Under the pieces are notes generated by a model that saw only the letters and a program-made list of their open reading frames with translations, did no database searches and was not told the DNA's origin. The position numbers and the translations under genes are program-made. Source: Sphingobium sp. OAS761 (GTDB lineage: Bacteria; Pseudomonadota; Alphaproteobacteria; Sphingomonadales; Sphingomonadaceae). Taken from it: a stretch of DNA of 64,000 nt. Shown piece after piece: positions 24,872 to 59,662 of this stretch (position 1 is its first letter; each line of letters begins with the position of its first letter). The DNA is taken from the NCBI RefSeq assembly GCF_024168485.1, contig NZ_JALJVY010000001.1, positions 372,001 through 436,000 of the forward strand, written 5' to 3'.

Positions 24872-25939
24872 TCAGGCCGCGTTCTGGGCCTTGCGCTCTG
24901 CAAAGCGGCGGCGGGCGACCAGCGCCACGGCGGCCGCGCCGAACAGCAGGACCATCGGCGGGGCGGGAACGTCCGTGCCGCCGGTGCTGGAACTGGAACC
25001 GCCGCTCGACGAACTGCTGGACGACGAACTGCTCGAAGAGGACGAGGACGAACTGCCGCTAGAACCCGAACTGCCCGACGAACCGCTGCTGCCCGAACTC
25101 CCGGTGCTGCCGAAGCTCGACGAACCGCCCGAGGATGAAGAGGAGCCGCTCGAGGACGAAGAGCTGGACGAGGACGAACTGCCCGACGAACCACTGCTGC
25201 CCGAACTGCCGCTGGAGCCGGAGCTGCCGCTCGAACCCGAACTGCCGCCGCTGGAGCTGGGGTGATCGGGCTTGCCCGGCTTGCCGCCGCTCGATCCGCC
25301 CGAACTGCTCGAAGAGGAGCTGGACGAAGAGGAGGACGATGACGAGCTGGAGCTGGACGAGGAGCTGGAGCTGACCCCGGAAGATGTCGACACGCCACCG
25401 GTGGAGGTGGACACGCCGCCGGTGGAAGTCGACACGCCGCCGGTCGAGGTCGACACGCCGCCGGTCGAGGTCGACACGCCGCCTGTCGTCGAACTGGTCG
25501 AGCTGCTGATCCCGCCGGTGGAGCTGCTGGTGGACGATATGACGACCGAACCGCCGCTGCCGCCTCCGCCACCGCCGAAGAAGCCACCGATGAAACCGCC
25601 GCCGCCGAAGCCGCCGCCACCGCCCATCACCACCGGAACAGCGCCGCCGCCACCGGACATCATCGGCATTTCGGCCGGCGGCAGGGGCAGGGGCAGGGGA
25701 ACGGGCGCCGGCTGGCTGGTGACGGTCACCGTCTGCGGTGCGCACGCGGTCACGGTCTTGACCACCTTGCGCTTCACGGCGCGCACGGCATAGCGCTTCT
25801 TGGGCGCTGCCTTGACGCTCTTGTTGCTGTGAACGACCGCAGGGCGCGCGCTTTCCGCCACATGGACCGCGCCGCCGCCGATGATCGCCCCGCCGCAAGT
25901 GCAGGCGCATAATTTAGCCAAGGCCATCCGTACCGACAT
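24872..25939 (-). CDS. Ser/Gly-rich low-complexity protein with PEP-CTERM-like sorting tail
   Basis: A 355-residue protein. Residues 1-30 form a signal-like region (MALAKLCACTCGGAIIGGG). A Lys/Arg-rich stretch (44-62), a Pro-rich part (78-92) and a Gly-rich part (96-130) follow. From about 131 to 320 it is almost only Ser, Gly and Thr: five 7-residue repeats of the TGGVSTS type near 152-187, a run of more than 20 Ser, SSG triplets and further Ser runs. The last 34 residues contain VPAPP, a hydrophobic helix LLFGAAAVALVA and the basic end RRRFAERK. This layout equals a PEP-CTERM signal with VPAP in place of VPEP, so the protein is probably an exosortase substrate exposed on the surface or in the matrix. 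The Ser-rich region would suit glycosylation. The MSVRMALAK start is at 25939; 25927 is possible. Confidence 0.78.
   Translation of the reverse strand: MSVRMALAKLCACTCGGAIIGGGAVHVAESARPAVVHSNKSVKAAPKKRYAVRAVKRKVVKTVTACAPQTVTVTSQPAPVPLPLPLPPAEMPMMSGGGGAVPVVMGGGGGFGGGGFIGGFFGGGGGGSGGSVVISSTSSSTGGISSSTSSTTGGVSTSTGGVSTSTGGVSTSTGGVSTSTGGVSTSSGVSSSSSSSSSSSSSSSSSSSSSSSSGGSSGGKPGKPDHPSSSGGSSGSSGSSGSSGSSGSSGSSGSSSSSSSSSSSGSSSSSGGSSSFGSTGSSGSSGSSGSSGSSGSSSSSSSSSSSSSSSSSGGSSSSTGGTDVPAPPMVLLFGAAAVALVARRRFAERKAQNAA
25386..25490 (-). repeat. five tandem 21-bp repeats in the Ser-rich gene
   Basis: Five consecutive 21-base units beginning GTCGACACGCC (plus strand) encode the 7-residue TGGVSTS repeat on the minus strand. 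Units three and four are identical. The others differ by a few bases, mostly at third codon positions. Confidence 0.9.
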
Positions 25940-26349
25940 AGGGTCCACTCTTCGTTTTTTGTCCAGGACCCGCCTCCGGTGTATCCAGGTGGCGGGACTG
26001 AGACTTCCTATCCCCAAGAACGCAAAAGAAAGCGTTAACTGCAATGACGTTAACCCTGAATATCGGGTGCAAGTCGAGGTAATTCCTGCGGTTCGCTGAA
26101 GGGATATGGTTAACGTCCCACAATGGAACGGCCGCGGGGCAAGAGCTGAATCCCCTTGCCTTGCTCTGCCGTCCCGGCGGCCGGTCGCGACGCAATCGCC
26201 CGTGCCGTCGGCGAAATCGTACCGGGCCGGTCCGGCTTCACCATTGCGCGCTTGTGTCGCCTCGTACCCATGGCTATTAGGCGCCACGAGAAAAAGGCAT
26301 GTGCGCCCCGGGACTTCCAGCATCGGGGCCATTCGATTCGGAGAGCCAG
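25940..26349. other. 410-base intergenic region between the Ser-rich gene and dksA
   Basis: No convincing gene is present. It is less GC-rich than its surroundings next to the Ser-rich gene. It holds three GTTAAC hexamers at 26034-26039, 26049-26054 and 26109-26114. The two divergent promoters must lie here, but I see no clear -35/-10, sigma-54 or GGAAC-type element. Confidence 0.6.
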
Positions 26350-26814
26350 ATGGCATCGGTCCTGAATTCCGATAAAGACGGTGCAAAGCCGCCCAAATCG
26401 ACTGTGACGCTACCCCCCGATTATCGGCCTTCGCCCGACGAAGAGTTCATGAATCCGCTTCAGCAGGAATATTTCCGGCAGCGCCTGTGGGCGTGGAAGA
26501 AGCAGATACTGACGGAGGCCGAAGGGACTTTGGCGGTGCTCCAGAACGAACCGCTGCGCGAACCCGATCTGAACGATCGCGCATCCAGCGAAACGGACTG
26601 GTCGATCGAACTGCGGACCCGCGACCGTCAGCGCAAGCTCATTTCCAAGATCGACGCGGCGCTGCGTCGCATCGACGAGGGCGAATATGGCTATTGCGAA
26701 GTGACGGGCGAGCCGATCTCGCTAGGTCGGCTGGAGGCGCGGCCGATCGCGACGATGACGGTCGAGGCGCAGGAGCGTCACGAGCGCCAGGAGAAAATCT
26801 CCCGCGATGATTAA
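26350..26814 (+). CDS. dksA: RNA polymerase-binding transcription factor DksA
   Basis: A 154-residue DksA that works with ppGpp to retune RNA polymerase during the stringent response. The coiled-coil arms include QQEYFRQRLWAWKKQILTEA and ELRTRDRQRKLISKIDAALR; the acidic tip residues between are present (EPDLNDRASSETDW). The C-terminal zinc-finger region reads YGYCEVTGEPISLGRLEARP with one Cys only; the other three ligands are absent, as is usual in alphaproteobacterial DksA. ATG 26350 begins MASVLNSDKD; the longer frame from 26299 lies in intergenic sequence. Confidence 0.93.
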   Translation: MASVLNSDKDGAKPPKSTVTLPPDYRPSPDEEFMNPLQQEYFRQRLWAWKKQILTEAEGTLAVLQNEPLREPDLNDRASSETDWSIELRTRDRQRKLISKIDAALRRIDEGEYGYCEVTGEPISLGRLEARPIATMTVEAQERHERQEKISRDD

Positions 26815-43926: not shown

Positions 43927-45960
43927 ATGGTTTACCAAATATCAAGATGGTCAGTGCAGGATCGCAACGACGTGCCGAACCTGCTACGCCTTCTGTACGC
44001 GAAAATGCGCGCGCATTATGCGCCCAGCACCCGGCAAAGCGCTGAGGTGCGCGATAGCCTTGTGAAAGCGCTCTACGCGTCGCCGGCGTCCCTCATGTCG
44101 GGGGCTGTATCGGGCGGTGCGATCAGTCTGGTCCTGGCGTGGGGAACCGCGGTTCCGGCAATGTGGGTCATCGCCGGACTGGCGGTTTTCGTAGGCGTCA
44201 GCCGGTCCATTTCCTCTGTTTATTTTCAGCGGCAACTGGCCGACAGCGATTCGCCGGCGCCTATCTGGGGCCAGGCATATGAGCTGGGCGCATGGCTCTA
44301 TGCCGGATTGCTCGGGTTGCAGGCCTTCGCATCGCTGCTCCTGACCCGCGATGCAACGCTGCATGTCCTGGCGGTGGGCATGGTGGCATCCTACGCCGGC
44401 GGCATTTCCGGCCGCAATGCCGGCCGCGTCCATGTGGCGGTGGGCCAGACCTGCCTGTCGCTGCTGCCCACGTCGCTGGGCCTCATGCTCTATGGCGACG
44501 TCGGATATTTCATCCTGGGCCTGCTTTGCTTCCTGATGATTTTCGCCATGGGCGAGATCACCAAGACCACCCATCGGATCGTGCTTCAGGCGCTGGAGGG
44601 CAAGCAGGAAAAGTCGCAGCTGGCGATCAAGTTCGAACGGCTTGCGCGCTATGACAGCCTGACCGGCGTCGAAAACCGCATGGCGATGCAGATGCGCCTG
44701 CGCGAAATGTTCTTTTCGCGCGTCAACGACACCGCACCGATGGCGATATTGTGGCTGGACCTGGATCGCTTCAAGGAAATCAACGATACGCTGGGTCATA
44801 TCGTCGGCGATCAGCTCCTGTGCCAGCTGGCAGAGCGCCTGAACGAAACCCTGGACGGTCGCGGCCATGTGGCCCGCTTCGGCGGCGACGAGTTCATCCT
44901 GATCTGTCCCGATACCGGCCGCGCGCAGGCGGAAGGCATCGCGCAGGACGTCATGCATATGCTGAGCGGCGATTTCTCGGTCATGGGCTATCATCTCGCC
45001 GTGACGGCGTCGGTCGGCATCGCGATGGCGCCGGACGACGGCATCGACGGCGACATATTGCTGCAACATGCCGATCTTGCCCTTTATCTCGCCAAGCGCG
45101 AAGGGCGAAACCGGTTCGCTTTCTTCGACTGGAGCATGAAGGAGCGGCAGGAGCGCGTCTACGAACTGGAAACGGGTCTGCGCGCGGCGCTGACCGATGG
45201 AAGCCTGCGGCTGCACTACCAGCCCATATTCGATGCCATTTCGGGACGCATCAGTATCTGCGAGGCACTGATGCGCTGGAATCATCCCTTTCTCGGACCG
45301 GTATCGCCCTCCGAGTTCATTCCAATCGCCGAAAGTTCCGGCCTGATCGAGCCGATGACGGAATGGGCGCTGAAGCAGGCCTGCGCGGATGCGATGCAAT
45401 GGCCCGACGATATCAGGGTGGCGGTCAACATTTCCCCGGCGCTCATCAAGACGGACGGCCTGTCGCGCGCCGTGATGTCCGCCCTGCTTACGTCGGGGCT
45501 GAAGGCGCGACGGCTGGAGCTGGAGGTGACCGAATCGATCCTGCTGGAGGATGACGGCCGGTCGCACATGATTCTGGGCGAGCTGCGCCGCATAGGCCTG
45601 CGTCTGGCGCTGGACGATTTCGGCACCGGCTATTCCTCGCTGGCTTCGCTGCGCGTGCACGATTTCGACACCATAAAGGTCGACCAGAGCTTCGTGCGCG
45701 GTATCCACGAAAATCCGCGTGACCGCGCCATTGCGCAGTCGGTGGCGTTCCTGGCCCGGCAACTGGGCGTGGAAACGGTCGCGGAAGGGATCGAGACGCA
45801 GGAACAACTGGACTATGTCCGCGACATCGGCCTCACCAATGTGCAGGGCTTCGCCCTCAGCAGGCCCATCCCGATGGACGAACTGCTGAAGCTGATGGAC
45901 GGATTCCGCGCGGGCCTCGACAGCCCGGCGGCAAATATACCGGCGCGCAAAATCGCCTGA
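43927..45960 (+). CDS. membrane-bound GGDEF-EAL c-di-GMP turnover protein
   Basis: A 677-residue protein. Six hydrophobic segments lie between about residues 53 and 212 (AMWVIAGLAVFVGVS, LYAGLLGLQAFASLLL, VGYFILGLLCFLMIFAMG and others). The GGDEF domain (about 235-395) starts YDSLTGVENRMA and has an intact ARFGGDEFILI site; the inhibitory RxxD site before it is absent. The EAL domain (about 410-660) has EALMRW, NISPALIKTDG, ELEVTESIL and LALDDFGTGYSSLASLRVHD, with metal ligands conserved. So both synthesis and hydrolysis are possible. It is convergent with the RpfF-like gene, 9 bases apart. No PAS domain is present. Confidence 0.9.
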   Translation: MVYQISRWSVQDRNDVPNLLRLLYAKMRAHYAPSTRQSAEVRDSLVKALYASPASLMSGAVSGGAISLVLAWGTAVPAMWVIAGLAVFVGVSRSISSVYFQRQLADSDSPAPIWGQAYELGAWLYAGLLGLQAFASLLLTRDATLHVLAVGMVASYAGGISGRNAGRVHVAVGQTCLSLLPTSLGLMLYGDVGYFILGLLCFLMIFAMGEITKTTHRIVLQALEGKQEKSQLAIKFERLARYDSLTGVENRMAMQMRLREMFFSRVNDTAPMAILWLDLDRFKEINDTLGHIVGDQLLCQLAERLNETLDGRGHVARFGGDEFILICPDTGRAQAEGIAQDVMHMLSGDFSVMGYHLAVTASVGIAMAPDDGIDGDILLQHADLALYLAKREGRNRFAFFDWSMKERQERVYELETGLRAALTDGSLRLHYQPIFDAISGRISICEALMRWNHPFLGPVSPSEFIPIAESSGLIEPMTEWALKQACADAMQWPDDIRVAVNISPALIKTDGLSRAVMSALLTSGLKARRLELEVTESILLEDDGRSHMILGELRRIGLRLALDDFGTGYSSLASLRVHDFDTIKVDQSFVRGIHENPRDRAIAQSVAFLARQLGVETVAEGIETQEQLDYVRDIGLTNVQGFALSRPIPMDELLKLMDGFRAGLDSPAANIPARKIA

Positions 45961-45969
45961 CCGGTCCGC

Positions 45970-46923
45970 CTATCCCGCCAGCCGGTGCTGTGCCGACGCG
46001 AGCCGGCGCATCATCCGAACATCGGTCAGGCTGATTTTCAGTGCGGACAAGGCCCAATTGTCGACGATGTCCTGCAATTCGCCATATTCCAGCGGATCGA
46101 CGCGGCGCCCGGCCTGAAACACGCCGACATGGCCGGAATGATGCCGGCGGTTGGCCGCCATGTAATCGCGCACCGCCCGTTCGCCCTCGCCGTCGTCGAC
46201 CAGGATATGGACGATGCCCATGTCATACATTTCCTCGGCGCTGTAGACCTTGCCGGACAGGATCATCCGTTCCGCCATCAACCGGCCGAGCTTGCGCGCC
46301 AGGATCGAATAGGCGCCCATGCCGGGAAACAGGCCGAACAGCATTTCCGGCAGCCCGAAGCGTGCACGGCGTTCCGCGATCACGACATCGAAGCACAGCA
46401 GCGCCTCGAAACCGCCGCCCAGTGCGTCCCCCTGTGCCAGTGCGATGGATACCGCCGGAATGTCCGCGTTTTTCCAGGTCTGGTACACCACGTCGATGCA
46501 GGCGTGACCATAGCGTCGCAAACCGGGAAGGTCGCCATTTTCGATGCAGGCGCAAAACAGGTCCAGATCGCCGCCGAGATTGAAGACTCCCGGGAAATGC
46601 GAACCCGCGACGATATATTTGACAGGCATTTCGCCGGCGTCGAACAGCCGCTTGGTTTCGGAGTACCAGGTCTGGGCGTCCCGCAGCATTTCCCGGCTGA
46701 AATTCGGGCGGCCCGACGGCGCCATGAAGGCCCAGACCGCTTCCGCCTCGGCATCCCAGTGCACGTCGATTTCCCCCAGGTCGAACATGGTCGACCTGGC
46801 CGGATCCTTCGAAATGCCATGCTGCCTTATGTCGCGGGATGGCGGTCCCGCCTCGACGTCATGCTGTTCCGACGCAATCTCGGCCGTATCCCTGCTGTAG
46901 CTAAATCGCCCTGAATCAACCAT
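45970..46923 (-). CDS. rpfF: RpfF-like crotonase, probable DSF fatty acid signal synthase
   Basis: A 317-residue crotonase-fold enzyme. RpfF hydrolyses and dehydrates acyl-ACP to make cis-2-enoic fatty acid signals (DSF). Key parts are FPGVFNLGGDLDLFCACIEN, ALAQGDALGGGFEALLCFDV and RFGLPEMLFGLFPGMGAYSI. The two glutamates, in GGGFE and GLPE, are 20 residues apart, the same spacing as catalytic Glu141 and Glu161 of Xanthomonas RpfF. A polar N-terminal extension of about 45 residues precedes the fold; ATG at 46923 is used, and Met at MFDLGEID is the alternative. The GGDEF-EAL gene converges on it, which suggests DSF / c-di-GMP linkage. Confidence 0.82.
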   Translation of the reverse strand: MVDSGRFSYSRDTAEIASEQHDVEAGPPSRDIRQHGISKDPARSTMFDLGEIDVHWDAEAEAVWAFMAPSGRPNFSREMLRDAQTWYSETKRLFDAGEMPVKYIVAGSHFPGVFNLGGDLDLFCACIENGDLPGLRRYGHACIDVVYQTWKNADIPAVSIALAQGDALGGGFEALLCFDVVIAERRARFGLPEMLFGLFPGMGAYSILARKLGRLMAERMILSGKVYSAEEMYDMGIVHILVDDGEGERAVRDYMAANRRHHSGHVGVFQAGRRVDPLEYGELQDIVDNWALSALKISLTDVRMMRRLASAQHRLAG

Positions 46924-47156
46924 ATGCGTCCCCGTCTTTTTGCGGTCCCTGAACTGTGTCGGGTCCGTATCAAGATGCAATCGATCGGGCGGAGAAGGCT
47001 AGGGCTTTAACTATTTTTGTTCTTGATTGTTGCAAATTGGTCGTCGGAAACCGGGGGTGTTTCGCTACTGCTGTGGCGATCGTGCAACAATCTGCCGCTT
47101 CATCGCGTGCGCGGCCGCCAAGGCTTTGTTAACTATCCCTGATTATTCCGGACTCC

Positions 47157-48509: not shown

Positions 48510-50099
48510 TCAGCGCAGGACGGGAATGGCGATGCGGTAGGCGCCGGTGGCAGCATCATGGTCCAGCGGTGCGCGCAACTGGCGAGAGAGGCCGGTCAGC
48601 ACGCGGCCATAGCGTTCCTCCAGATAGGTCGTCAGCAAACGGCCCTCGCGCAATGCCGGCGACTGCATTTCCAGGGACGCCCGTGTCGCGTCGTCGTCCT
48701 GTTCCCGGATGGAAATGCGGATCTGCCCCTTGGGGTCCAGCATCATGGCCAGTTCGACCAGTTCGGTGACCAGAAAGGCCACCGGCACGGCCACGTCCTG
48801 GCTGATGTGCAGATTGTCGCTGACGATCTGTATGCCAAAGCGGCGCGCCTCCGCAGCCGCGGTGCCGCGCAGGCTGGCGGACAATTCGCTGACCAGCGAT
48901 CGCACGCCGACGCCGCGATGTTCCTCCAGCTCGGCGAAATGATTGCGATGAACGACCGACAACGCGTCCACCCGGCGCTGGATCGATGCGTAGGCGGTCA
49001 CGGCCTCGGGCTCGTGCGCCGACCGGGCATGCAGGTTGATCAGGCTGGCGATGATCTGCAGGTTGTTCTTGACCCGGTGGTGCACTTCACGCGTCAGCTT
49101 GCGCTGCGCATCCAGGCTCGCGGCCATCTCTGCCTCATGGGTCGCGACATCCTGGCTGATTTCGTAAAACGTCTCGCCCAGCGCCGCGATTTCCCGGGCC
49201 GGGGTTCGGACCCGCCGCATCGGTTGCAGAACCTGTCCCGGCTGATAGCCGGCAACGGCCCGACGCAGCAGGACGAGCGGCCGGATCAGCAGTCGATTGA
49301 CGACGAACCAGCCGATCGCGGCGGCGGCGAACCACATGACCAGCGGCAGGAACAGCGACAGCGTCCGGGCAATCGTCGCCGGAGGATCGCGCACCGTCAT
49401 CATCAGCAGGACATCGGACGGGTCGATCCGTGCCGAAAGGCTCAGCCCCTCGCGCGACAGGCGCTTCGATCTCGGTTCGCTGATGACGAGGGCCAGTTTC
49501 CCCTGATGCAGGCTGAGCTGGCGGTTCTGCAATGCGGTGGCCGGGTCCGCCACGCTTTCGAGATGGCGCCGCGAATAATATATCAGTCCCACCAGGCGGC
49601 CGTTCGCGCTCTTTACGCGCGTGGCGAGCAGGGATTGTTCGGGCATCAACTGCACGTCGGGGCCGATGAAATGATCCGTGCCCGCCATGGCGCCGGTTTC
49701 CGGGCGGTCGGAACCGCAAAGCCTGCGGCCCGCGCGATCGTAGATGTAGAACCGGCCGTCATCCTTGTTGTCGAGCAGGAAGAAGCCGAGCCGCTTGCAG
49801 ATGCCGTCGTCCGGACGACCGTTGGAAAGCGTGTTCAGCGTCAGGGCGAGCGCAGTGCGGTCGGACGCCAGATCGGCTGTCAGTTTCCGGGCGCTCTGCG
49901 TCACTGCCATGCGCAGCAACGCTTCCTTTTCGAGGTCCGCGGTGCGGATCGCCTGAAGGGAGGCCACAAGGGCGATCAGGCCAAGCGGCAATAGGGCAAG
50001 GGTCAGGATGAGGAACATCTTGACGCCGGTCGATCGGAAAAATCGGAATAGCGGGCCCGCCAGCGCATCTGCTGCCGGCGCCTGACTGCCCCCGTTCAT
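48510..50099 (-). CDS. phyP: PhyP-like HisKA_2 membrane sensor protein of the general stress response
   Basis: A 529-residue membrane sensor. TM1 is FLILTLALLPLGLIALVASL (about 29-48), a periplasmic sensor region follows (about 55-245), and TM2 is LFLPLVMWFAAAAIGWFVVN. A HAMP-like linker precedes the HisKA_2 helix REVHHRVKNNLQIIASLINL with the phosphorylatable His. The ATPase half is degenerate: TELVELAMML stands where the N-box Asn should be, and the G1 Asp/Gly motif is missing. A phosphatase-only role on PhyR fits what is known of PhyP in Sphingomonas, a negative regulator of PhyR. nepR lies 7 bases upstream in the same operon. Confidence 0.85.
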   Translation of the reverse strand: MNGGSQAPAADALAGPLFRFFRSTGVKMFLILTLALLPLGLIALVASLQAIRTADLEKEALLRMAVTQSARKLTADLASDRTALALTLNTLSNGRPDDGICKRLGFFLLDNKDDGRFYIYDRAGRRLCGSDRPETGAMAGTDHFIGPDVQLMPEQSLLATRVKSANGRLVGLIYYSRRHLESVADPATALQNRQLSLHQGKLALVISEPRSKRLSREGLSLSARIDPSDVLLMMTVRDPPATIARTLSLFLPLVMWFAAAAIGWFVVNRLLIRPLVLLRRAVAGYQPGQVLQPMRRVRTPAREIAALGETFYEISQDVATHEAEMAASLDAQRKLTREVHHRVKNNLQIIASLINLHARSAHEPEAVTAYASIQRRVDALSVVHRNHFAELEEHRGVGVRSLVSELSASLRGTAAAEARRFGIQIVSDNLHISQDVAVPVAFLVTELVELAMMLDPKGQIRISIREQDDDATRASLEMQSPALREGRLLTTYLEERYGRVLTGLSRQLRAPLDHDAATGAYRIAIPVLR

Positions 50100-50106
50100 G
50101 ACGTCT

Positions 50107-50298
50107 TCAGTCCAGCTTGCTTAAAAGGTCCAGCATTTCCGCAGGGATCGATTCCTCGACAGTGCGCTGATATACGGATTTCAAGGCGTCCGAGACATGT
50201 GCCTCTTCCTTGTCCGTACCACGCTTGCCGCGCGAGGGAGACTTGGCTTCCGCCTCGCCCTTGATCCCCTTGCTTCCGGCAGACCGGCGTTCCGTCAT
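50107..50298 (-). CDS. nepR: anti-sigma factor NepR
   Basis: A 63-residue protein that holds EcfG inactive until phosphorylated PhyR binds it. The C-terminal helices DALKSVYQRTVEESIPAEML and DLLSKLD are the NepR core; the N-terminal half (KGIKGEAEAKSPSRGKRGTD) is disordered and charged. ATG 50298 is used, though its ribosome-binding site is poor. A TTG at 50310 has AGAGGGG 6 bases upstream and might be the real start. An ATG at 50409 would give an atypical N-terminus. A GGAAC-type promoter lies upstream at 50446-50472. Confidence 0.85.
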   Translation of the reverse strand: MTERRSAGSKGIKGEAEAKSPSRGKRGTDKEEAHVSDALKSVYQRTVEESIPAEMLDLLSKLD

Positions 50299-50445
50299 CG
50301 AAGAAACCAAAATTTGCCCCTCTGAAGCAATGGCATTAACACCAGTTAATTCCGTCTTTGCGACAATTCCACGCCGCGTCAATTCGTTCACGACCGCATT
50401 TTTCCGCATGATGCGCAATAATATCTAAAAATCAGCCTTCATCCC

Positions 50446-50472
50446 GAAACAAATTGGCACGTCGATGGTTCC
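50446..50472 (-). promoter_or_regulatory. EcfG-type promoter of nepR-phyP
   Basis: On the minus strand GGAAC, 17 bases, then GTTTC. The published EcfG consensus is GGAAC-N16/17-CGTT. The predicted start of transcription would be near 50438, giving a leader of about 140 bases to ATG 50298. Confidence 0.65.
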
Positions 50473-50619
50473 ACCGGGCGAGGCGTTTTTTTGACGCCGC
50501 CGGACTTGCCCGTTTCGGGGGGGCGGGGGGTTGCCATGACGATATAGTCGGACCATCCTGTTCCCTCTCCGGCAGGCCGGGGACACAGGCCCCTTTTCGG
50601 GCAGGGAGACGATTTGACG

Positions 50620-51411
50620 ATGTCGCTTGGACAGCAGCTACACCCCCATCTTCCGTTTTTGCGTCGGTATGCGCGTGCGCTGACCGGCAGCCAGACGCAT
50701 GGCGACGCCTATGTGCGTGCGACGCTGGAGGCGATCGTGGCGGCCCCCGAGGAATTTCCGTCCGGCGTCGACCCGCGCCTGGGCCTTTACCGCACCTTCC
50801 ATGCCATCTGGTCGTCGTCGCACATGGACGACCTGCCGGCGGGCGCCGGGGAAGGGCGTGAGGCTGTCGCCCAGGCGCGCCTAGCCCGACTGACCCCGTT
50901 GCCGCGCCAGGCGCTGTTGCTGACCGCGCTGGAAGGCTTCACCGTCGACGACGTGGCCTATCTGATCGCCATGCCGGTCGACGATGTGGAAGCACTGGTG
51001 CAGGAGGCACTGGGCGAGATCGAGGCGCAGACCCGGGCCAAGGTGCTGATTATCGAGGACGAACCGATTATCGCGATGGATATCGAAACCATCGTGCGCG
51101 ATCTGGGTCATGACGTCACCGCCATCGCGGTCACGCGGGAAGACGCCGTTCGCGAGGCGATGGCCGACCGGCCCGGACTGGTTCTGGCCGACATCCAGCT
51201 CGCCGACGATTCCAGCGGCATCGATGCGGTGAAGGATATATTGAGCGAATTTTCGGTGCCCGTCATTTTCATCACCGCCTTCCCCGAGCGGCTGCTGACG
51301 GGGGAGCGGCCCGAGCCGACTTTCCTGATCACCAAGCCGTTCCAGCGCGCAACGGTGAAAGCCGCCATATCCCAGGCGCTGTTCTTCGACGAAGCGACGG
51401 CACCGGCCTAG
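50620..51411 (+). CDS. phyR: response regulator PhyR (sigma-like plus receiver)
   Basis: A 263-residue anti-anti-sigma factor. Residues 1-135 are the EcfG-like sigma mimic (LPFLRRYARALTGSQTHGDA, LPRQALLLTALEGFTVDDVA). Residues 140-262 are a receiver with acidic pocket IIEDE, phospho-acceptor Asp191 in LVLADIQLADD and Lys in LITKPF. On phosphorylation the sigma-like part binds NepR and frees EcfG. The ATG at 50620 is used; the TTG at 50614 is an alternative. It is divergent from nepR-phyP. I see no GGAAC promoter for phyR itself. Confidence 0.95.
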   Translation: MSLGQQLHPHLPFLRRYARALTGSQTHGDAYVRATLEAIVAAPEEFPSGVDPRLGLYRTFHAIWSSSHMDDLPAGAGEGREAVAQARLARLTPLPRQALLLTALEGFTVDDVAYLIAMPVDDVEALVQEALGEIEAQTRAKVLIIEDEPIIAMDIETIVRDLGHDVTAIAVTREDAVREAMADRPGLVLADIQLADDSSGIDAVKDILSEFSVPVIFITAFPERLLTGERPEPTFLITKPFQRATVKAAISQALFFDEATAPA

Positions 51412-51424
51412 GCATTGACGTGAT

Positions 51425-51446
51425 GGGCCGCCCTTTGTGGCGGCCC
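51425..51446 (+). terminator. hairpin after phyR
   Basis: GGGCCGCC pairs with GGCGGCCC around CTTTGT. No T-run follows, so readthrough is possible. Confidence 0.45.
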
Positions 51447-51450
51447 GGAC

Positions 51451-51475
51451 GGAACTCCCCTCCGCGCGTCGCGTT
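51451..51475 (+). promoter_or_regulatory. EcfG-type promoter before the first small membrane gene
   Basis: GGAAC, 16 bases, CGTT: an exact match to the EcfG consensus. It is 31 bases before the ATG at 51506 and could also serve ecfG downstream. Confidence 0.7.
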
Positions 51476-51505
51476 AGTAAGGCGTAACGATCGGGAGATG
51501 AAGCC

Positions 51506-51637
51506 ATGGCAGACAAAGAGCAGCACATCGACGCTGACGACGCCCGCGCAGGCTCCACGGAAAATGTCGTTCGGTACGTTTTGGGCGTTTCGTTTGTGCT
51601 GGCGGTCATCGCCATGCTTCTGGTCCTTTGGATCTGA
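51506..51637 (+). CDS. 43-residue single-pass membrane protein, EcfG-linked
   Basis: A 43-residue protein: MADKEQHIDADDARAGSTEN, then a hydrophobic helix VLGVSFVLAVIAMLLVLWI to the end. The N-terminus is acidic and should face the cytosol. GGGAG lies 8 bases before the ATG. It is preceded by a GGAAC-N16-CGTT promoter and followed by ecfG. I do not recognise a named family. The reading frame is too short for most gene callers. Confidence 0.7.
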   Translation: MADKEQHIDADDARAGSTENVVRYVLGVSFVLAVIAMLLVLWI

Positions 51638-51681
51638 GGCTGGCGCAATCGCCTTCAAGCATATAGGATACGGGCAGATTT

Positions 51682-52374
51682 ATGGCTTTGACGACGTCGG
51701 TTCATGCGACGAGGGCGACAGCCAACACGGGGATTGTTGCCATGGATGAGGACGTTGGCGAAGCCGTAGAGCGTGCGACGTTGTCCGATGACGATTTCAA
51801 GCGCGAGCTTGCGGCGGTCATCCCCCATCTGCGTGCGTTCGGGCGTTCCCTGTCGGGTAACAGGGATGTTGCCGACGACCTGGTTCAGGAAACCCTGTTG
51901 AAGGCATGGGCCGCGCGCGCGCGATTTCAGGCCGGCACGAACATGCGCGCGTGGACCTTCATCATCCTGCGCAACCATTATCTGTCGCAGATGCGGCGTT
52001 CGCGCTTTCGCGGCGATTGGGACGATCTGACGGCCGACCGGATTCTTGCCGCGCCTGCCGGGCAGGACAAGCATGTCGAACTCAGCGACATGCAGCGCGC
52101 GCTGCTGCAACTTCCCCAGCCGCAGCGTGAGGCGCTGATCCTCGTTGGCGCGGGCGGTTTCGCCTATGAAGAAGCGGCCGAAATCTGCGGTGTTGCCGTC
52201 GGAACGATCAAGAGCCGGGTTGCGCGGGGACGTGCTGCGCTGGAACAGATACTGGAAACCGGCGAACTTCCGTCGCGGCGGCACCAGGAAACGAGCGAAA
52301 GCGGCGTGTTGAACGAGATCATGGACGATGTCGATCGTCTCAGCCGGGGCACGGACAATTCCGGCGTCGGCTGA
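51682..52374 (+). CDS. ecfG: RNA polymerase sigma factor EcfG
   Basis: A 230-residue ECF sigma factor. The sigma2 domain has DLVQETLLKAWAARARFQAG and TNMRAWTFIILRNHYLSQMR. The sigma4 domain has LPQPQREALILVGAGGFAYE and AAEICGVAVGTIKSRVARGR, the helix-turn-helix. These are typical EcfG (ECF15) motifs. An N-terminal extension of about 38 residues precedes the conserved part, so a start at ATG 51742 (MDEDVGEAVE) may be used. EcfG drives the general stress regulon under PhyR-NepR control. Confidence 0.93.
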   Translation: MALTTSVHATRATANTGIVAMDEDVGEAVERATLSDDDFKRELAAVIPHLRAFGRSLSGNRDVADDLVQETLLKAWAARARFQAGTNMRAWTFIILRNHYLSQMRRSRFRGDWDDLTADRILAAPAGQDKHVELSDMQRALLQLPQPQREALILVGAGGFAYEEAAEICGVAVGTIKSRVARGRAALEQILETGELPSRRHQETSESGVLNEIMDDVDRLSRGTDNSGVG

Positions 52375-52820: not shown

Positions 52821-54209
52821 ATGATCAGGCTGTTCAAACATTATGTACCCCATGCCGTGCTGCTCCTGGGCATGCTGGATTTCGTCATGCTGTTGTGCGC
52901 AGCCGAGACCGGATGGGTGATGCGCGCCCAGCAGATCGGCATGGCGATCGAGCATGTCTCGACGCGCATCGGACCGCTGCTGAGCTTTGCCGTGGCGATA
53001 CAGACCGCGATGATCGCGGTGGGCGTCTATGGAACCGAAGCGCTGCAATCGATCCGTTTCGCCTTCGCGCGCTTGCTGGTCGCGGTGTCGCTCGGCGTCA
53101 TCTTCCTGTCGGTGGCCTATTTCCTGCTGCCGGGGATGACGCTCTGGCGCTCCAATTCGCTCTACGCCATGGGGCTGGCCCTGGTTCTCCTCCTTACGGT
53201 CAGGCTTCTGCTCGGCTCCATTATGGGCGGCGAGGCTTTCAAGCGGCGGCTTGTCGTCCTGGGCGCGGGCACCCGCGCCGACCGGATACGCGAGCTGGAG
53301 CGCAAGAAGGGCGCGGGCTTCCTGATCGTCGGCTATATCGCCATGAACGACGGGCCGCAGGTGATCGATGAGGCGATCAATCGCAACGCCATCTTCAACC
53401 TGGCCGATTTCGTCGTCCGCCTGAATGCCAGCGAAGTGGTGCTGGCGCTGGAGGAACGGCGCAACGCGCTGCCCCTGTCGGACCTGCTGCGGATCAAGAC
53501 GACCGGCGTCCACGTCAATGAGATTTCGACCTTCCTGGAGCGGGAAACCGGCCGGGTCGACCTGGCCAGCGTCAATCCCAGCTGGCTCATCTTCTCGGAC
53601 GGCTTTTCCGCCGGCCGCCGCCTGTCGAGTTTTGCCAAGCGCCTGTTCGACATCGTCGCCAGCACGATCCTGTTGCTGCTGACCGGCCCGGTCATCCTGA
53701 TCGCGGCGATCCTGGTCAAGCTGGACAGCAAGGGGCCGGCCTTCTACCGGCAGCAGCGCATCGGCCTCTACGGCCAGGAATTCTGGATCGTGAAGCTGCG
53801 GACGATGCGGCAGGACGCCGAAGTCGCGGGCAAGGCGGTCTGGGCTGAAAAGGACGATCCGCGCATCACGCGCCTCGGCTACTGGCTGCGCAAGCTGCGG
53901 ATAGACGAACTGCCGCAGACATGGACGGTGCTGAAGGGAGAGATGAGCTTCGTCGGCCCGCGCCCCGAACGGCGCCAGTTCGTCGAGGATCTGGAACAGC
54001 ATCTGCGCTATTATGCCGAACGGCATATGGTAAAGCCCGGCATCACCGGCTGGGCGCAGATCAACTATCCCTATGGCGCGTCGATCGAGGATGCTCGGCA
54101 CAAGCTGGAATATGACCTCTATTATGCGAAAAATTATACACCGTTCCTGGACCTGCTGATCCTGATCCAGACGGTGCGGGTCATCCTGTGGCCCGACGGC
54201 GCACGCTGA
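52821..54209 (+). CDS. PEP-CTERM system-associated sugar transferase (TIGR03013-type)
   Basis: A 462-residue polyprenyl-phosphate sugar-1-phosphate transferase. The N-terminal half has four or five membrane helices, then a Rossmann-like part (RRLVVLGAGTRADRIRELER). The C-terminal bacterial sugar transferase domain starts KRLFDIVASTILLLLTGPVI and has SKGPAFYRQQRIGLYGQEFW, LRTMRQD and MSFVGPRPERRQF. Such enzymes start exopolysaccharide units in genomes with exosortase XrtA. prsK begins 10 bases after it. The upstream 256 bases hold no clear promoter. Confidence 0.88.
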   Translation: MIRLFKHYVPHAVLLLGMLDFVMLLCAAETGWVMRAQQIGMAIEHVSTRIGPLLSFAVAIQTAMIAVGVYGTEALQSIRFAFARLLVAVSLGVIFLSVAYFLLPGMTLWRSNSLYAMGLALVLLLTVRLLLGSIMGGEAFKRRLVVLGAGTRADRIRELERKKGAGFLIVGYIAMNDGPQVIDEAINRNAIFNLADFVVRLNASEVVLALEERRNALPLSDLLRIKTTGVHVNEISTFLERETGRVDLASVNPSWLIFSDGFSAGRRLSSFAKRLFDIVASTILLLLTGPVILIAAILVKLDSKGPAFYRQQRIGLYGQEFWIVKLRTMRQDAEVAGKAVWAEKDDPRITRLGYWLRKLRIDELPQTWTVLKGEMSFVGPRPERRQFVEDLEQHLRYYAERHMVKPGITGWAQINYPYGASIEDARHKLEYDLYYAKNYTPFLDLLILIQTVRVILWPDGAR

Positions 54210-54219
54210 CGCCCTGATC

Positions 54220-56292
54220 ATGGGGACGCTGCTGCAATTTGTCGGCGACTGGGGCCATGCTCTCGCGGCGGTCCTGTTCGCGGCGCTGGGCATCTTCCTG
54301 TTCCGGCGGCGGGAGGAAGCGGTCGAGCCGCGCCTGCTCGTCGCGGCGCTGCTGCTGACATCCTGCTGGGCGCTCTACGTGTCCTTCGGCGGCGTGTCCA
54401 AACCGCTGTCCGGCATCGGCGAAAGCATCCGCAACGGCGCGTGGCTGATAACCCTTTTCGTCCTGTTCCGCCGGGGACCGGCCGGCCGCACCGCGCCGAT
54501 GCAGGCCGTCAGCGCAGTCTACGCCGTGCTCGCCGGCCTGCTGATACTACAGACGTTCATCGATCTGGGATGGCGGCAGATCCCGGCCAGCAGCGACGTG
54601 CAGCACGCGCTCGTCAAGCTGTCGCTGATCCTGCGCATGATGGCGGCGGTGGGCTGCCTGCTGCTCGTGCATCATCTCTACACCGCGTGGCCATCGCGGG
54701 AACGGCAGGGCATTGCCCTGTTGCTGGGTGCGCTGGCGGCGATGTGGACCTATGATCTCAACCTGTACACGATCTGCTATTTCGCCCCCGGCCGGGTGAG
54801 CGAGCTTTATGCGCTGCGCGGGCTGGCCATGGCGCTGCTGGCGCCGGTGATCGCGCTTGCGCTGCGCAGGAACATGGCGGATCGACTGCAACTGTCGCGT
54901 ACCCTGACCTTTCAGTCGCTCTCCCTGGTCGCGGTGCTGCTCTATGTCGTGGTGCTGAGCGCCCTTGCGGTCCTCATAGAATTGATCGCCGGCCCCTATG
55001 CCCGCGTGATAGAGATCGGGGCCGTCTTCTTCTCGGCCGTCACCGTGCTCGCTCTGCTGCCGTCTCCCCGGTTCAGGGCGCTGTGGAAAGTGCAGGTCGC
55101 CAAGCATTTTTTCCAGCATCGCTACGACTATCGCGCCGAATGGCTGCGTTTCGGCGAGACCATCGGCCGGTCGGGGGCCGATGCGCCGCCGCTTTTCGTG
55201 CGCGTCGCAAAGGCGGTGGCCGACATTACGGATTCGCCGGCCGCCATGCTGATGCTGCGCGACGCGGCCGGCGGCCTGTCGTTCGAAGGTCACTGGAACT
55301 GGGATGGCGACCTGCCCGATGCCGCGACCATATCGGCGGAACAGGCCGAACGGATGGAGCAGACCGGCTGGATATTCGATTTGGCGGTGCCGGGATCGTC
55401 CTCCGCCCTGCCGGACGCCCTGTCGGCCAGCCCGCGCGCCTGGGCACTGGCGCCGCTGATCCACTATGACCGGCTGGTCGGCGCCATCCTGCTCGCCCGT
55501 CCGCCGGTCGACCGGCGGCTGGACTGGGAGGATTTCGACATGCTCCGCGCCGCCGGGCGGCAGGCCGCCACCTATATCAGCGAAGCGCAGGGGCAGAAGG
55601 CGCTGGACGACGCCCGCCATTTCGACGAATTCAACCGTCGCTTCGCCTTCATCATCCACGATATCAAGAATCTGGTCAGTCAATTGTCGCTGCTGGCCCG
55701 CAATGCCGAACGTCATGCCGACAACCCGGATTTTCGCGCCGACATGTTGCTGACGCTCAAGGAATCGGTCGGCCGGATGAACGACATGCTTGCCCGCCTG
55801 TCGCAGCATAATCGCGGCCGGGCGGAAGAACCGCGGGCGCTGGACCTGCGTCCCATACTGGACCGGGTGGCTGACGCGCGCGCGCGCCATCATGCGCTGG
55901 CCGTATCGGGTCAGGCCCCGGCAGCTCTGGCCGACCCGGCCCGCGTCGAACAGATACTCATACATCTGATCCAGAACGCCATCGATGCCAGTCCGCCCGA
56001 CGCGCCGGTCGAATTGCGCCTGTCGGCCGATGATACAGGTGTCGTGGTGGACATCGTCGATCGCGGATGCGGCATGAGCGCCGATTTCATCCGGCGCGAC
56101 CTGTTCAAACCCTTTTCGTCCAGCAAGACGGGCGGCTTCGGCCTTGGAGCGTTCGAGGCGCGCGCGCTGGCGCAGGCGATGGGCGGCCGGATCGACGTGG
56201 AGAGCAAGACCGGTGCGGGCACCCGTTTCACCCTGCGCCTGCCGCGCGCGGTGGCCGGCACCGATGATCATGTCCGGGAGAAGGCAGCCTGA
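54220..56292 (+). CDS. prsK: PEP-CTERM system histidine kinase PrsK
   Basis: A 690-residue membrane kinase. About eight hydrophobic helices occupy the N-terminal 280 residues (HALAAVLFAALGIFLF, LVAALLLTSCWALYVSFGGV and others). A GAF-like domain follows (about 325-445). The kinase core starts FNRRFAFIIHDIKNLVSQLS, with His in IIHDIKN, and the ATPase has QNAIDASP, DRGCGMS and FGLGAFEARALAQAMGG. This matches PrsK, which phosphorylates PrsR. Its stop overlaps the prsR ATG (TGATG). Confidence 0.9.
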   Translation: MGTLLQFVGDWGHALAAVLFAALGIFLFRRREEAVEPRLLVAALLLTSCWALYVSFGGVSKPLSGIGESIRNGAWLITLFVLFRRGPAGRTAPMQAVSAVYAVLAGLLILQTFIDLGWRQIPASSDVQHALVKLSLILRMMAAVGCLLLVHHLYTAWPSRERQGIALLLGALAAMWTYDLNLYTICYFAPGRVSELYALRGLAMALLAPVIALALRRNMADRLQLSRTLTFQSLSLVAVLLYVVVLSALAVLIELIAGPYARVIEIGAVFFSAVTVLALLPSPRFRALWKVQVAKHFFQHRYDYRAEWLRFGETIGRSGADAPPLFVRVAKAVADITDSPAAMLMLRDAAGGLSFEGHWNWDGDLPDAATISAEQAERMEQTGWIFDLAVPGSSSALPDALSASPRAWALAPLIHYDRLVGAILLARPPVDRRLDWEDFDMLRAAGRQAATYISEAQGQKALDDARHFDEFNRRFAFIIHDIKNLVSQLSLLARNAERHADNPDFRADMLLTLKESVGRMNDMLARLSQHNRGRAEEPRALDLRPILDRVADARARHHALAVSGQAPAALADPARVEQILIHLIQNAIDASPPDAPVELRLSADDTGVVVDIVDRGCGMSADFIRRDLFKPFSSSKTGGFGLGAFEARALAQAMGGRIDVESKTGAGTRFTLRLPRAVAGTDDHVREKAA

Positions 56293-57656
56293 TGAGCGAC
56301 ACGCGGCCCAAATTGCTGATCGTGGAAGATGATCCGGGGCTCCAGCGTCAGTTGCGCTGGGCCTATGACGATTACCGGCTGTTCATCGCCGGCGACCGGG
56401 AAGAAGCGATCGAGATGCTGCGCGCCGAAACGCCCGACGTCGTCACGCTGGACCTTGGCCTGCCGCCCGATCCCGACGGCACCAGCGAAGGCTTCGCCAC
56501 GTTGGCGGAGATATTGCGGATCAAGCCCGATACGAAAGTCATCGTGGCGTCTGGCCATGGTGCCCGGGAAAGCGCGCTGGAGGCGATCGCCGGGGGCGCC
56601 TATGATTTCTACCAGAAGCCGGTCGATATCGACGAGCTGGGCCTGATCGTGCGGCGCGCGTTTCACGTGCGCGCACTGGAGCAGGAAAATATGCGCCTTG
56701 CCGAAACCCTGCCCGGCGACGGGCCGGTGCTCGGCCGGTTGATCACCGGCGCGCCGGAAATGGCGCGGGTGGCCCGCACGATAGAGCGGGTCGCGGGCGC
56801 GCAGGTGTCGGTCATGCTGCTTGGCGCCAGCGGCACGGGCAAGGAATTGCTGGCCCAGGGCCTGCATGATGCCAGCCCCCGCCGCGCGGGCGCGTTCGTC
56901 GCGATCAATTGCGCCGCGATCCCCGAAAACCTGCTGGAATCGGAACTGTTCGGCCATGAAAAGGGCGCCTTCACCGGCGCCATCCGGACGATGCCCGGCA
57001 AGATCGAGCAGGCGCAGGGCGGCACGCTCTTCCTGGACGAGGTGGGCGATTTGCCGCTGTCGCTCCAGGCCAAGCTGTTGCGTTTCCTTCAGGACCGGGT
57101 GATCGAACGGATCGGCGGGCGGCAACCCATCGCCGTCGACACCCGGATCGCCTGCGCGACTCACCAGAATCTGGAAGAAATGATCGCCGCCGGCACCTTC
57201 CGGGAAGATCTCTTCTATCGCCTCGCCGAAATCGTCGTGCGTATTCCCGCGCTCAAGGAACGGCCGGGCGATCCCGCCTTGCTCGCGCGTCATTTCCTGT
57301 CGCGTTTCGCCCGCGAAATGAATCCGCAGGTGAAGGGGCTGGCGCCCGACGCGCTCGCCGCGCTCGATGCCTGGCACTGGCCCGGCAATGTGCGGGAACT
57401 GGAAAACCGGATCAAGCGCGCGGTGATCATGGCCGACGGCAAGCTGGTCACGGCGGCCGACCTCGATCTGGACGAGGACCGGGTAGAGGGCGGGGAACTG
57501 GTCAATCTGAAGGCGGCCCGTGAAATGGCGGATCGCCGTGCCATTCGCCGCGCCATCGCCCGGACGGACGGCAATATCTCCGGTGCGGCCAAGATGCTGG
57601 GGATCAGCCGGCCGACGCTGTACGACCTGCTCAAGCAATATCAGATGCAGGGCTGA
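56292..57656 (+). CDS. prsR: PEP-CTERM system sigma-54 response regulator PrsR
   Basis: A 454-residue NtrC-type activator. The receiver has acidic pocket IVEDD and phospho-acceptor Asp54 in LDLGLPPDPD. The AAA+ domain has Walker A GASGTGKE, the sigma-54 contact loop GAFTGA and Walker B GGTLFLDEVGDLPLSLQ. The C-terminal Fis-type helix-turn-helix is GNISGAAKMLGISRPTLYDL. It should open -24/-12 promoters of PEP-CTERM and polysaccharide genes. Coupled to prsK and followed by prsT 5 bases later. Confidence 0.93.
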   Translation: MSDTRPKLLIVEDDPGLQRQLRWAYDDYRLFIAGDREEAIEMLRAETPDVVTLDLGLPPDPDGTSEGFATLAEILRIKPDTKVIVASGHGARESALEAIAGGAYDFYQKPVDIDELGLIVRRAFHVRALEQENMRLAETLPGDGPVLGRLITGAPEMARVARTIERVAGAQVSVMLLGASGTGKELLAQGLHDASPRRAGAFVAINCAAIPENLLESELFGHEKGAFTGAIRTMPGKIEQAQGGTLFLDEVGDLPLSLQAKLLRFLQDRVIERIGGRQPIAVDTRIACATHQNLEEMIAAGTFREDLFYRLAEIVVRIPALKERPGDPALLARHFLSRFAREMNPQVKGLAPDALAALDAWHWPGNVRELENRIKRAVIMADGKLVTAADLDLDEDRVEGGELVNLKAAREMADRRAIRRAIARTDGNISGAAKMLGISRPTLYDLLKQYQMQG

Positions 57657-57661
57657 CCGCG

Positions 57662-59662
57662 ATGCGCAGATCACGCCTTTTTCTGCTGGCCGGTTTCGCC
57701 CTGTTGCTGATCGCCGTGGTCGGCCTGTGGCAATGGCGGGGCCATGAACGGGACGGCAGCGCGGCGCTCGCGCGCGGGCTGGCCGCGCTCGACAAGGGCG
57801 ATGCCCGCGTCGCGCGGGTCGAACTGATGAATGCCATCAAGGCGGCGCCGCGATCGGCCGCCGCGCACCGGGCGCAGGCGCGCGCGCTCGTCCTGCTGGG
57901 CGACGGCGCCGGGGCCGAGGCGGAAGTGGAACGGACACGCGCGCTCGGGGCGCCGGCCGCCGACACCCGCGCGGTCATGGCCGAAGCCCTGTTGTTGCAG
58001 GGAAACGCCGCTGCCGCCGCGCGCGAAGCAGAGGCGCTGGACGTTCCGGACGGGGATCGCGACGCCGCGGACCGGATGGCCGCCCGCGCCGCGCTTGCGC
58101 AGGACGATCCGCGCACCGCGCAGCGGCTGCTCGCCCGGCTGCTGCAACGCGCGCCCGCCGATGTGCAGGCTTGGGTCGATCTGGGCCGTTTGCGGCTCGC
58201 CGTCGGTGATCAGGCGGGCGCGATCGCGGCCGCGGACCACGCCGTGGCCCTTTCGCCAAACTCGGCAAGGGCGCTGACCCTGCGTGCCGAACTGACCCGT
58301 GCCCAATATGGCCTGAGCGCGTCCCTGCCCTGGTTCGACCGGGCGCTGGTGGCCGATCCCGCTTCGGTCCCGACCATGGAACAATATGCCGCGACGCTGG
58401 CCGACGCGGGGCAGGCGGGGCGGATGCTGGCCCTCACGCGGCGGATATTGGCGCTCGACCCGGGCAATCCGCGCGCCTTGCTGATGCAGGCGGTGATGGC
58501 GGCGCGGGCAGACCGGCCGGACCTGGCGCGCGCGCTGCTTGACCGGACGCAGGGGCGGCTGGACGAAGAACCGGCGACCCGGCTGCTGCGCGGGACGCTG
58601 CATCTGGCGGACGGAAACGCGGTCCTGGCTGCCGAGGCGCTGGCGCCGCTGGTTGCCGCGCAACCGGACAACAGGACCGCGCGCACCCTGCTCGGACGGG
58701 CGCAACTGATGGCCGGCGATGCCGCGTCGGCCGCGGCGACGCTTGCCCCGGCCGTGGCCCAGCGCGACGCCGGTCCCTATATATTGACCCTCGCGGCGCG
58801 GGCGCAGGAAATGCTGGGCCATCGCGCCATGGCCGGCGACATGCTGGCGCGTGCGGCATGGCCGGTGCGCGCTGCGACCGACAGTTTCGCCAGCCCGCGC
58901 GATGCCATCGTGGCGTCCGGACCGGCCCCGGCCGATCCGGCCACGGCCCATGACAATATTCCCTATATCCGCGCCCTGATGCGGGCCGGTCGCACCGGTC
59001 AAGCGGTCGCCCGGGCTCGCCTGCTGAGCGACGCCAATCCCGGCGCACCGGCGGCGTGGCTCATTCTGGGCGATACGTTCGACTTGGCAGGTCGTCCGGG
59101 TGATGCCGCGCGCGCCTATGAAAGCGCGGCCAATATCCGTTTCGACCGGGCGGCGGCGCTGCGGCTCGCGGCGGCTTGGGGCAGGGCGGGCGACAGCGCG
59201 CGCGCAGCCCAGGTCGTCCAGCTCTTCCTGGCGCAGAACCCGACCGACCCGGACATGCTGCGGGTCGGCGCGGCGATGGCGATGGAACGGCGCGACTGGC
59301 GCGGTGCCCTGCGGATGCTGCAGGCGGTACGGGCGCAGCTGGGCGATGCCGACGCCCTGTTGATGGCCGACCTTTCGCGGGCTGCGCTTGAAACCGGGGA
59401 CCGGATCGCCGCGCGGGCCTATGCCGCCCATGCCTATCGGCTGATGCCGGCCAATCCGGTGACGGCGGATGCGCTGGGCTGGGTGTTGCTCAACAGCGGC
59501 GCGGACGCGCGCGAAGCGGTGGACCTGCTGGAAAAGGCGGTCGCGCTGGCGCCCGCGCAGCCGGTGCTGCGCCAGCATCTCAGTCGCGCCTATGCGGCGG
59601 TGGGGCGAACGAAGGAAGCGCGCCTGGTGCTGTCGACCGGAGCGACGACGCCGGAAAGCTAG
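57662..59662 (+). CDS. prsT: PEP-CTERM system TPR protein PrsT
   Basis: A 666-residue protein with an N-terminal membrane helix (LFLLAGFALLLIAVVGLWQW, about 6-25) and then TPR-like helical repeats throughout (ALARGLAALDKGDARVARVE, AAAHRAQARALVLLGDGAGA, VTADALGWVLLNSGADAREA). The repeats face the periplasm. PrsT is found next to PrsK and PrsR in exosortase genomes and may help polymer or PEP-CTERM protein export. It lacks a lipobox. It ends the cluster; 87 bases without a clear terminator follow. Confidence 0.87.
   Translation: MRRSRLFLLAGFALLLIAVVGLWQWRGHERDGSAALARGLAALDKGDARVARVELMNAIKAAPRSAAAHRAQARALVLLGDGAGAEAEVERTRALGAPAADTRAVMAEALLLQGNAAAAAREAEALDVPDGDRDAADRMAARAALAQDDPRTAQRLLARLLQRAPADVQAWVDLGRLRLAVGDQAGAIAAADHAVALSPNSARALTLRAELTRAQYGLSASLPWFDRALVADPASVPTMEQYAATLADAGQAGRMLALTRRILALDPGNPRALLMQAVMAARADRPDLARALLDRTQGRLDEEPATRLLRGTLHLADGNAVLAAEALAPLVAAQPDNRTARTLLGRAQLMAGDAASAAATLAPAVAQRDAGPYILTLAARAQEMLGHRAMAGDMLARAAWPVRAATDSFASPRDAIVASGPAPADPATAHDNIPYIRALMRAGRTGQAVARARLLSDANPGAPAAWLILGDTFDLAGRPGDAARAYESAANIRFDRAAALRLAAAWGRAGDSARAAQVVQLFLAQNPTDPDMLRVGAAMAMERRDWRGALRMLQAVRAQLGDADALLMADLSRAALETGDRIAARAYAAHAYRLMPANPVTADALGWVLLNSGADAREAVDLLEKAVALAPAQPVLRQHLSRAYAAVGRTKEARLVLSTGATTPES

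Follow-up and report, generated by a model that had tools for sequence, protein, structure and literature searches.

A serine-rich protein with a VPAPP tail as a probable client of exosortase XrtA in Sphingobium and other Sphingomonadaceae

The 64,000-nucleotide stretch of the Sphingobium sp. OAS761 genome analysed here (the window) contains a gene for a serine-rich protein that ends in VPAPP, a hydrophobic helix and a cluster of arginines, and it raises the question of whether this protein is handled by an exosortase and, if so, under which control. The original prediction described an export-like start, a Ser/Gly/Thr region, VPAPP, a helix and, at the very end, RRRFAERK. The translation bears out this anatomy (Table 1) save for the last point, RRRFAERK being followed by AQNAA.

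The low-complexity region (residues 134–324, 191 aa) is made up of 115 Ser, 41 Gly and 17 Thr. Since the Ser codons of its poly-Ser runs are mixed (six codons, 2.2 bits) the stretch is not a simple DNA repeat. Several long ORFs overlap the gene on the opposite strand; these look like by-products of its codons. The VPAPP motif starts at residue 324, the last segment (324–355) being VPAPPMVLLFGAAAVALVARRRFAERKAQNAA, and the 15 residues which follow VPAPP have a mean Kyte-Doolittle value of 2.38 and lead into RRR. Residues 29–75 hold 11 Lys and Arg and a single Asp or Glu.

Table 1. Positions, strands and basis of assignment of the features discussed in the text (numbering of the window).
Feature	Position	Strand	Basis
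Ser-rich VPAPP-tail protein gene (P0001)	24872..25939	-	355 aa + stop by translation
Residues 1-28 MSVRMALAKLCACTCGGAIIGGGAVHVA, candidate export signal or N-terminal anchor, conserved	25856..25939	-	identity and hydropathy
Residues 29-95, linker: basic, then Pro-rich	25655..25855	-	residue counts
Residues 96-133, Gly/Phe block (GGFGGGGFIGGFFGG)	25541..25654	-	motif counts, alignment
Residues 134-323, low-complexity Ser/Gly/Thr	24971..25540	-	91% S/G/T in residues 134-324
Residues 324-355, VPAPP + hydrophobic helix + RRRFAERKAQNAA; candidate XrtA sorting tail	24875..24970	-	
Conserved upstream region, three GTTAAC boxes (26034, 26049, 26109)	26034..26114	-	upstream alignment
dksA, divergent neighbour, synteny conserved	26299..26814	+	TIGR02420 142.2 > 115.5
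EpsB_2, glycosyltransferase of XrtA/PEP-CTERM system	52821..54209	+	TIGR03013 489.5 > 393.35 bits
prsK	54220..56292	+	TIGR02916 491.9 > 300 bits
prsR	56292..57656	+	TIGR02915 666.1 > 502.6 bits
prsT-like TPR protein	57662..59662	+	TIGR02917 185.4 bits, below 312.2 cut-off

With the N-terminal 94 residues as query, 34 of the 37 genus genomes, the window's own among them, give a match, one each, and 24 genomes from other families of the order give none. In a class-wide sample five of 385 genomes match, own included, all from the same bacterial family. A scan of named genomes gave at least 94 confirmed candidates, the best 80 of which represent 79 distinct loci in Sphingobium, Novosphingobium, Sphingopyxis, Sphingomonas, Parasphingorhabdus, Rhizorhapis, Sphingosinicella, Citromicrobium and others; the closest among the matches listed are from Sphingobium. 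Within these 79 loci (best 80 of at least 94) the protein ranges from 233 to 521 residues (L080, L112 and L113 excluded), residues 29–90 average 14.4 Lys and Arg and 2.1 Asp and Glu, and FFGG or GFFG occurs in 77. The Gly/Phe block has invariant columns in alignment A3 (22 sequences). Within flanks of at most 3 kb, DksA is encoded at 65 of these loci and SerS at 57 (best 80 of at least 94); two of the dksA-less loci end before reaching dksA and 12, many of them from Novosphingobium, are without it. The gene looks old and vertically inherited.

Are the last residues an exosortase sorting signal? Against NCBIfam (E ≤ 10) the whole protein has no match to any PEP-CTERM model, TIGR02595 included, its single match reaching 11 of the 200 bits required. 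Against PF07589 it scores 14.7 bits (cut-off 20.7); in the PF07589 search of its own genome it scores 19.7, again below the cut-off, no other match there reaching E ≤ 0.01. Taken by themselves, the last 40 residues exceed the TIGR02595 cut-off (19.0 against 16) and fall just under that of PF07589 (20.3). They also exceed two MYXO-CTERM cut-offs (TIGR03901, 20.3 against 20; TIGR03382, 19.3 against 15.85), but MYXO-CTERM is described as having an invariant Cys (PMC11980579), which is missing here, no Cys being present in residues 316–355. HMM support is thus marginal and not specific. In the profile check proposed in the original prediction, the last 40 residues exceed the cut-off of TIGR02595 but not that of PF07589, and the whole protein stays below.

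Three other matches to PF07589 in this genome (E 0.4–2.2) do not resemble sorting tails: the match in L038 is out of frame inside a longer ORF, that in L039:1928–3322 coincides with the N-terminal membrane segment of its ORF, and the third, in L004, has a hydrophobic helix followed by ARRRRPER, without VPxP.

The tail itself is strongly conserved. The tail query matched all 34 genomes of the genus with a match, and in the 30 examined in full VPAPP is present in every locus, own copy included. At E ≤ 1, 28 of these 30 tails match TIGR02595 and 28 match PF07589; the two-tail shortfall presumably reflects L034 and L035, whose 40-residue pieces begin inside the helix. These two orthologues continue for 27 residues after the Arg cluster and end in IPIIRTGNI. 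Over the wider set (79 loci from the best 80 of at least 94) a tail was found in 76; the three exceptions are L080, whose frame runs off the locus, and L112 and L113, whose frames are short. The near-invariant Pro-Glu-Pro of PEP-CTERM proteins was seen neither in the window, which has VPAPP, nor in 75 of these 76 tails, also VPAPP, while the remaining one reads VPEPG. In the 77 proteins compared (that of the window plus 76 of the 79 loci, L080, L112 and L113 being left out; best 80 of at least 94) VPAP, LF and the helix residues after them hardly vary, and the hydrophobic helix followed by a basic cluster, present in the window, is kept. Ten residues remain after the PF07589 match, which stops at residue 345 of the 355; 87% of PEP-CTERM domains are reported to have fewer than ten residues C-terminal to them (PMC1569441).

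One might suppose that this is a plain C-terminal membrane anchor which is never cut, the protein being a tethered Ser-rich stalk which belongs to the same EPS system and co-occurs with XrtA without being its substrate. A helix with an Arg cluster suits any C-tail anchor, the HMM scores are marginal and shared with MYXO-CTERM, and L034 and L035 carry their 27-residue extensions after the Arg cluster. The near-invariance of VPAP, LF and the helix residues (77 proteins; best 80 of at least 94) goes beyond what an anchor should need, however, and the occurrence of VPEPG in one orthologue (best 80 of at least 94) also argues against it, so that we regard a plain anchor as unlikely; the distribution of the gene relative to exosortases, given below, tells against it too.

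The genome contains a single exosortase match (PF09721, 219.1 bits), an ORF at G000:C8:190849–192393 (L036:14850–16394). It is XrtA (TIGR03109, 303.9 against 208), fused to an EpsI domain, and its ACSG, NGVR and HVVYG correspond to CxG, NxxR and HxxxG, the motifs described for EpsH (PMC1569441). Its neighbours include XrtA-type EPS genes over the cut-offs of TIGR03098, TIGR03099, TIGR03027, TIGR03007, TIGR03015, TIGR03087 and TIGR03108, and one below that of TIGR03018 (197.2 against 230.65); one of the ten ORFs scanned at this locus had no family match. The window holds further XrtA-linked genes (Table 1). Of the prs genes that the original prediction had placed there, prsK and prsR exceed their cut-offs and prsT does not. 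Just before these XrtA-linked genes (48510–52374) are a PhyK-like kinase, PhyR and a sigma-70/ECF-type factor, in what looks like a general stress response cluster. At 43927–46980 a GGDEF-EAL protein adjoins a crotonase-family protein resembling the DSF synthase RpfF (177.1 bits against an RpfF cut-off of 550; NF006452, 358.5 against 177).

The distribution of gene and enzyme was compared in 298 genomes of the bacterial family, the gene being detected by a profile of 22 N-termini. This profile matches 181 genomes and XrtA is over its cut-off in 194; the gene is present in 176 of the 194 genomes with XrtA and in five of the 104 without (both, 176; gene alone, 5; XrtA alone, 18; neither, 99). 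Fisher's test gives p = 4e-53, which is not a true probability as the genomes are related, and for this reason the cases within genera weigh more. In eight genera otherwise holding both, some genome lacks the gene and has no XrtA over cut-off (G241, G186, G138 and G298, G341, G166, G113, G177, and G194, the last 77% complete). Within the genus the gene is missing from G017, G026 and G034, and none of these has a long-frame exosortase; in two the sole exosortase frame is of 325–327, and the third, 60% complete, has no exosortase. Among the other 34, 33 have an exosortase frame of at least 510 and G020 has a fragment.

There are exceptions on both sides. The gene occurs without XrtA over cut-off in G130, G176, G231, G252 and G294, the last four within genera otherwise holding both. 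In G130, a genome without an exosortase match, the orthologue (C155:17758–18189) has one in-frame TAG, which may point to decay once XrtA had been lost, or to a sequencing error. Of the 18 genomes with XrtA alone, G097, G202, G211, G289 and G305 come from genera where other genomes carry the gene; G202, G211 and G305 are 67–90% complete. Where exosortase matches are only below cut-off, the gene is missing from 56 of 57 genomes, which argues further against a plain anchor; the exception, G252, has two such matches, which might be parts of a single gene.

How many clients does XrtA have in these bacteria? We counted PF07589 matches per genome (E ≤ 0.01, the top count being recorded as at least 27) and took the number of exosortases as the count of TIGR03109 matches at E ≤ 0.001; in G000, and perhaps in others, the PF07589 count takes in the tail of the Ser-rich protein itself. 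In the 143 genomes that carry the gene and have XrtA as their sole match the median is 1, with 141 genomes at 0–4, one at 5 and one at 9. Among the 15 that lack the gene and again have XrtA as sole match, ten have from 14 to at least 27 and five have 0–3, three of the latter being 67–90% complete. With XrtA plus another match the median is 10 if the gene is present (33 genomes, 12 of them at 1–4), and the counts are 10, 17 and 23 in the three genomes without it. The 56 gene-less genomes with only below-cut-off exosortase matches have a median of at least 27. At E ≤ 0.05 the 18 XrtA genomes without the gene divide into 13 with at least 10 matches, two with 3 and three with none. A pattern requiring PEP fits 25 of the 30 loci retained from the PF07589 search of the XrtA-alone genomes and four gene-positive ones. 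Genera g27 (4 listed genomes) and g106 (5) have XrtA and at least 14 PEP-CTERM matches without the Ser-rich protein.

The simplest reading is that there are two ways of using XrtA, either with many canonical clients or with the Ser-rich protein and few others. From this comparative evidence, XrtA appears to be near-dedicated in many Sphingomonadaceae, with the Ser-rich protein as a main or only client. The stronger form, that in most XrtA-bearing members of the family XrtA is in effect dedicated to one vertically inherited VPAPP client, the usual many-client role being filled by another exosortase or, in a few genera, by an XrtA without this client that serves many canonical PEP-CTERM proteins, seems to us evenly balanced. 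Small proteins of the genus in L152, L154, L155 and L156, with a WCWFGKC-type motif (TFCWFKC in L152), a Ser/Gly linker and a VPEPEQMALFGMGAAVL tail, are likely a second XrtA client in some species. They share with the Ser-rich protein a signal-like N-terminus, the Ser/Gly linker, a VPxP tail and the genus, but their frames are of 85–143 aa and their tail is a canonical VPEP; the tail query found none in the genome of the window at E ≤ 0.05.

With regard to regulation, GTTAAC occurs 108 times in 77 upstream regions of up to 400 bases, as against an expected mean of 4.6 and maximum of 10 in 100 order-1 Markov sets, and 54 of the 108 lie 101–120 bases before the start. It is also found at eight of the 12 loci without dksA nearby (loci from the best 80 of at least 94). 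The boxes at 26030–26115 of the window are conserved over genera. GTTAAC-N9-GTTAA, counted on both strands of its one place, and GGACGTTAACCAT each occur at one place in the genome, upstream of the Ser-rich gene, and so no regulon was found. CtrA control was considered for the upstream GTTAACCAT, but TTAA-N7-TTAA, given as the canonical CtrA site (PMC9437464), occurs in none of 109 upstream regions. A search for structured RNA returned a single weak Rfam match (19.9 against a gathering score of 55).

One might have expected an ordinary canonical PEP-CTERM protein under the control of PrsK/PrsR and sigma-54. Both prsK and prsR are in the window, and this is a single gene, 359 bases from the first ATG of the divergent dksA frame, an arrangement common for PEP-CTERM genes (PMC1569441). 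The motif is VPAPP, though, and a different conserved element, GTTAAC, lies upstream. Moreover, a scan of the gene's strand (25940–26300, up to 4 mismatches) found no site for the sigma-54 PEP box, and in the genus only five of 30 upstream regions have a sigma-54-like site, with 2–3 mismatches; the consensus scanned, with fixed GG and GC, is what we take the box to be. We therefore consider this reading very unlikely; control by PrsK/PrsR, suggested by the shared window, finds no support, there being no sigma-54-like site upstream on the gene's strand. The proteobacterial box is reported upstream of 99 of 167 proteobacterial PEP-CTERM genes (PMC1569441).

The N-terminus poses a separate question. 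Residues 1–28 are signal-like by eye and by hydropathy (1.7 over residues 10–25), and their mean pairwise identity is 83%, the same as that of the tail (83%; both in the 77 proteins, from the best 80 of at least 94 candidates). Such conservation is unusual for a cleaved signal, the core (GGAIIGGGA) is Gly-rich, and a cut after residue 28 would put His or Gln at -3. These residues might instead be a retained anchor, both ends being held and XrtA freeing only the C-terminus, which could be compatible with the protein being an XrtA client. PEP-CTERM proteins are usually predicted to have signal peptides (PMC1569441), and we think a retained anchor possible, if somewhat doubtful. If XrtA is indeed dedicated to this protein, the N-terminal 28 residues would be a working part and not just a signal peptide.

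Compared with the PEP-CTERM/XrtA system (TIGR02595/PF07589, TIGR03109) the protein has the same tail plan of a short motif, a hydrophobic helix and an Arg cluster, the same enrichment in Ser and Thr, a single gene with a long upstream gap, and the association with XrtA and an EPS locus. It differs in having VPAPP rather than VPEP, in scoring below the full-length cut-offs, in the ten residues after the PF07589 match, in that no sigma-54 box was found, and in being well conserved with one match per genus genome; no Pfam or NCBIfam model scores over its cut-off on the N-terminal part or the Gly/Phe block. With PepA (NF033554) it shares a weak tail match (14.4 bits) and the prsK/prsR/prsT/epsB2 context, but the cut-off of 80 bits is not reached and the pepA of Aquincola is described as RpoN-dependent (PMC9850573). 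PepA of Aquincola, a PEP-CTERM protein of floc formation, decreased released polymers and increased cell-bound EPS when overexpressed (PMC9850573), and may be a useful parallel. An exosortase accompanied by one detected client has a precedent in Rhodospirillum rubrum, with EpsH and one PEP-CTERM gene; there, however, the gene has motif 1 of the promoter element of PEP-CTERM genes (PMC1569441), whereas the Ser-rich protein is a probable client conserved over many genera of one bacterial family. No paper on the Ser-rich VPAPP family was found on searching PEP-CTERM with Novosphingobium, Sphingomonas and Sphingopyxis, and exosortase with Sphingobium; the PEP-CTERM literature matching Sphingomonas or Sphingopyxis had titles on other organisms. 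The available text of PMC11340318, on Sphingomonas EPS, names an exosortase-associated amidotransferase, and neither PEP-CTERM nor XrtA.

Taken together, we consider the Ser-rich protein a probable client of XrtA, because its tail alone matches TIGR02595, one orthologue has VPEPG, gene and enzyme co-occur, PF07589 counts are low where both are present, and the only exosortase of the genome is an XrtA with the CxG, NxxR and HxxxG motifs among XrtA-type EPS genes. The link to XrtA made in the original prediction has accordingly gained support from the tail-only match, the sole XrtA and the 298-genome comparison. Several points weigh against it: the lack of the Glu of PEP in VPAPP, the full-length scores, the PF07589 score of the tail just under the cut-off, the MYXO-CTERM matches, the five gene-only and 18 XrtA-only genomes, the 27-residue extensions of L034 and L035, the lack of a sigma-54 box and the absence of XrtA from flanks of up to about 3 kb at all 79 loci (best 80 of at least 94). 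Co-occurrence, moreover, is not equal to cleavage.

On the family model (PMC1569441) the N-terminus would carry the protein across the inner membrane, where the VPAPP tail would hold it, the Arg cluster facing the cytoplasm. XrtA, whose gene is in an EPS locus in another part of the genome, is predicted to cut at or near VPAPP, and would then hand the protein on to the outside or to the EPS layer. More speculatively, the basic block could be a binding site for acidic polysaccharide and the Ser-rich part a flexible, perhaps glycosylated, stalk. A matrix or surface role, as put forward in the original prediction, would be plausible.

To our knowledge little is known of how exosortases act on their clients or of the clients' own function, partly because many genomes hold many clients. 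Exosortase genomes are reported to have a median of eight PEP-CTERM clients (PMC1569441). Many of the genomes described here have one exosortase match and few PEP-CTERM matches, which could make the function of both enzyme and client tractable, and a poorly understood export system could thereby become easy to test.
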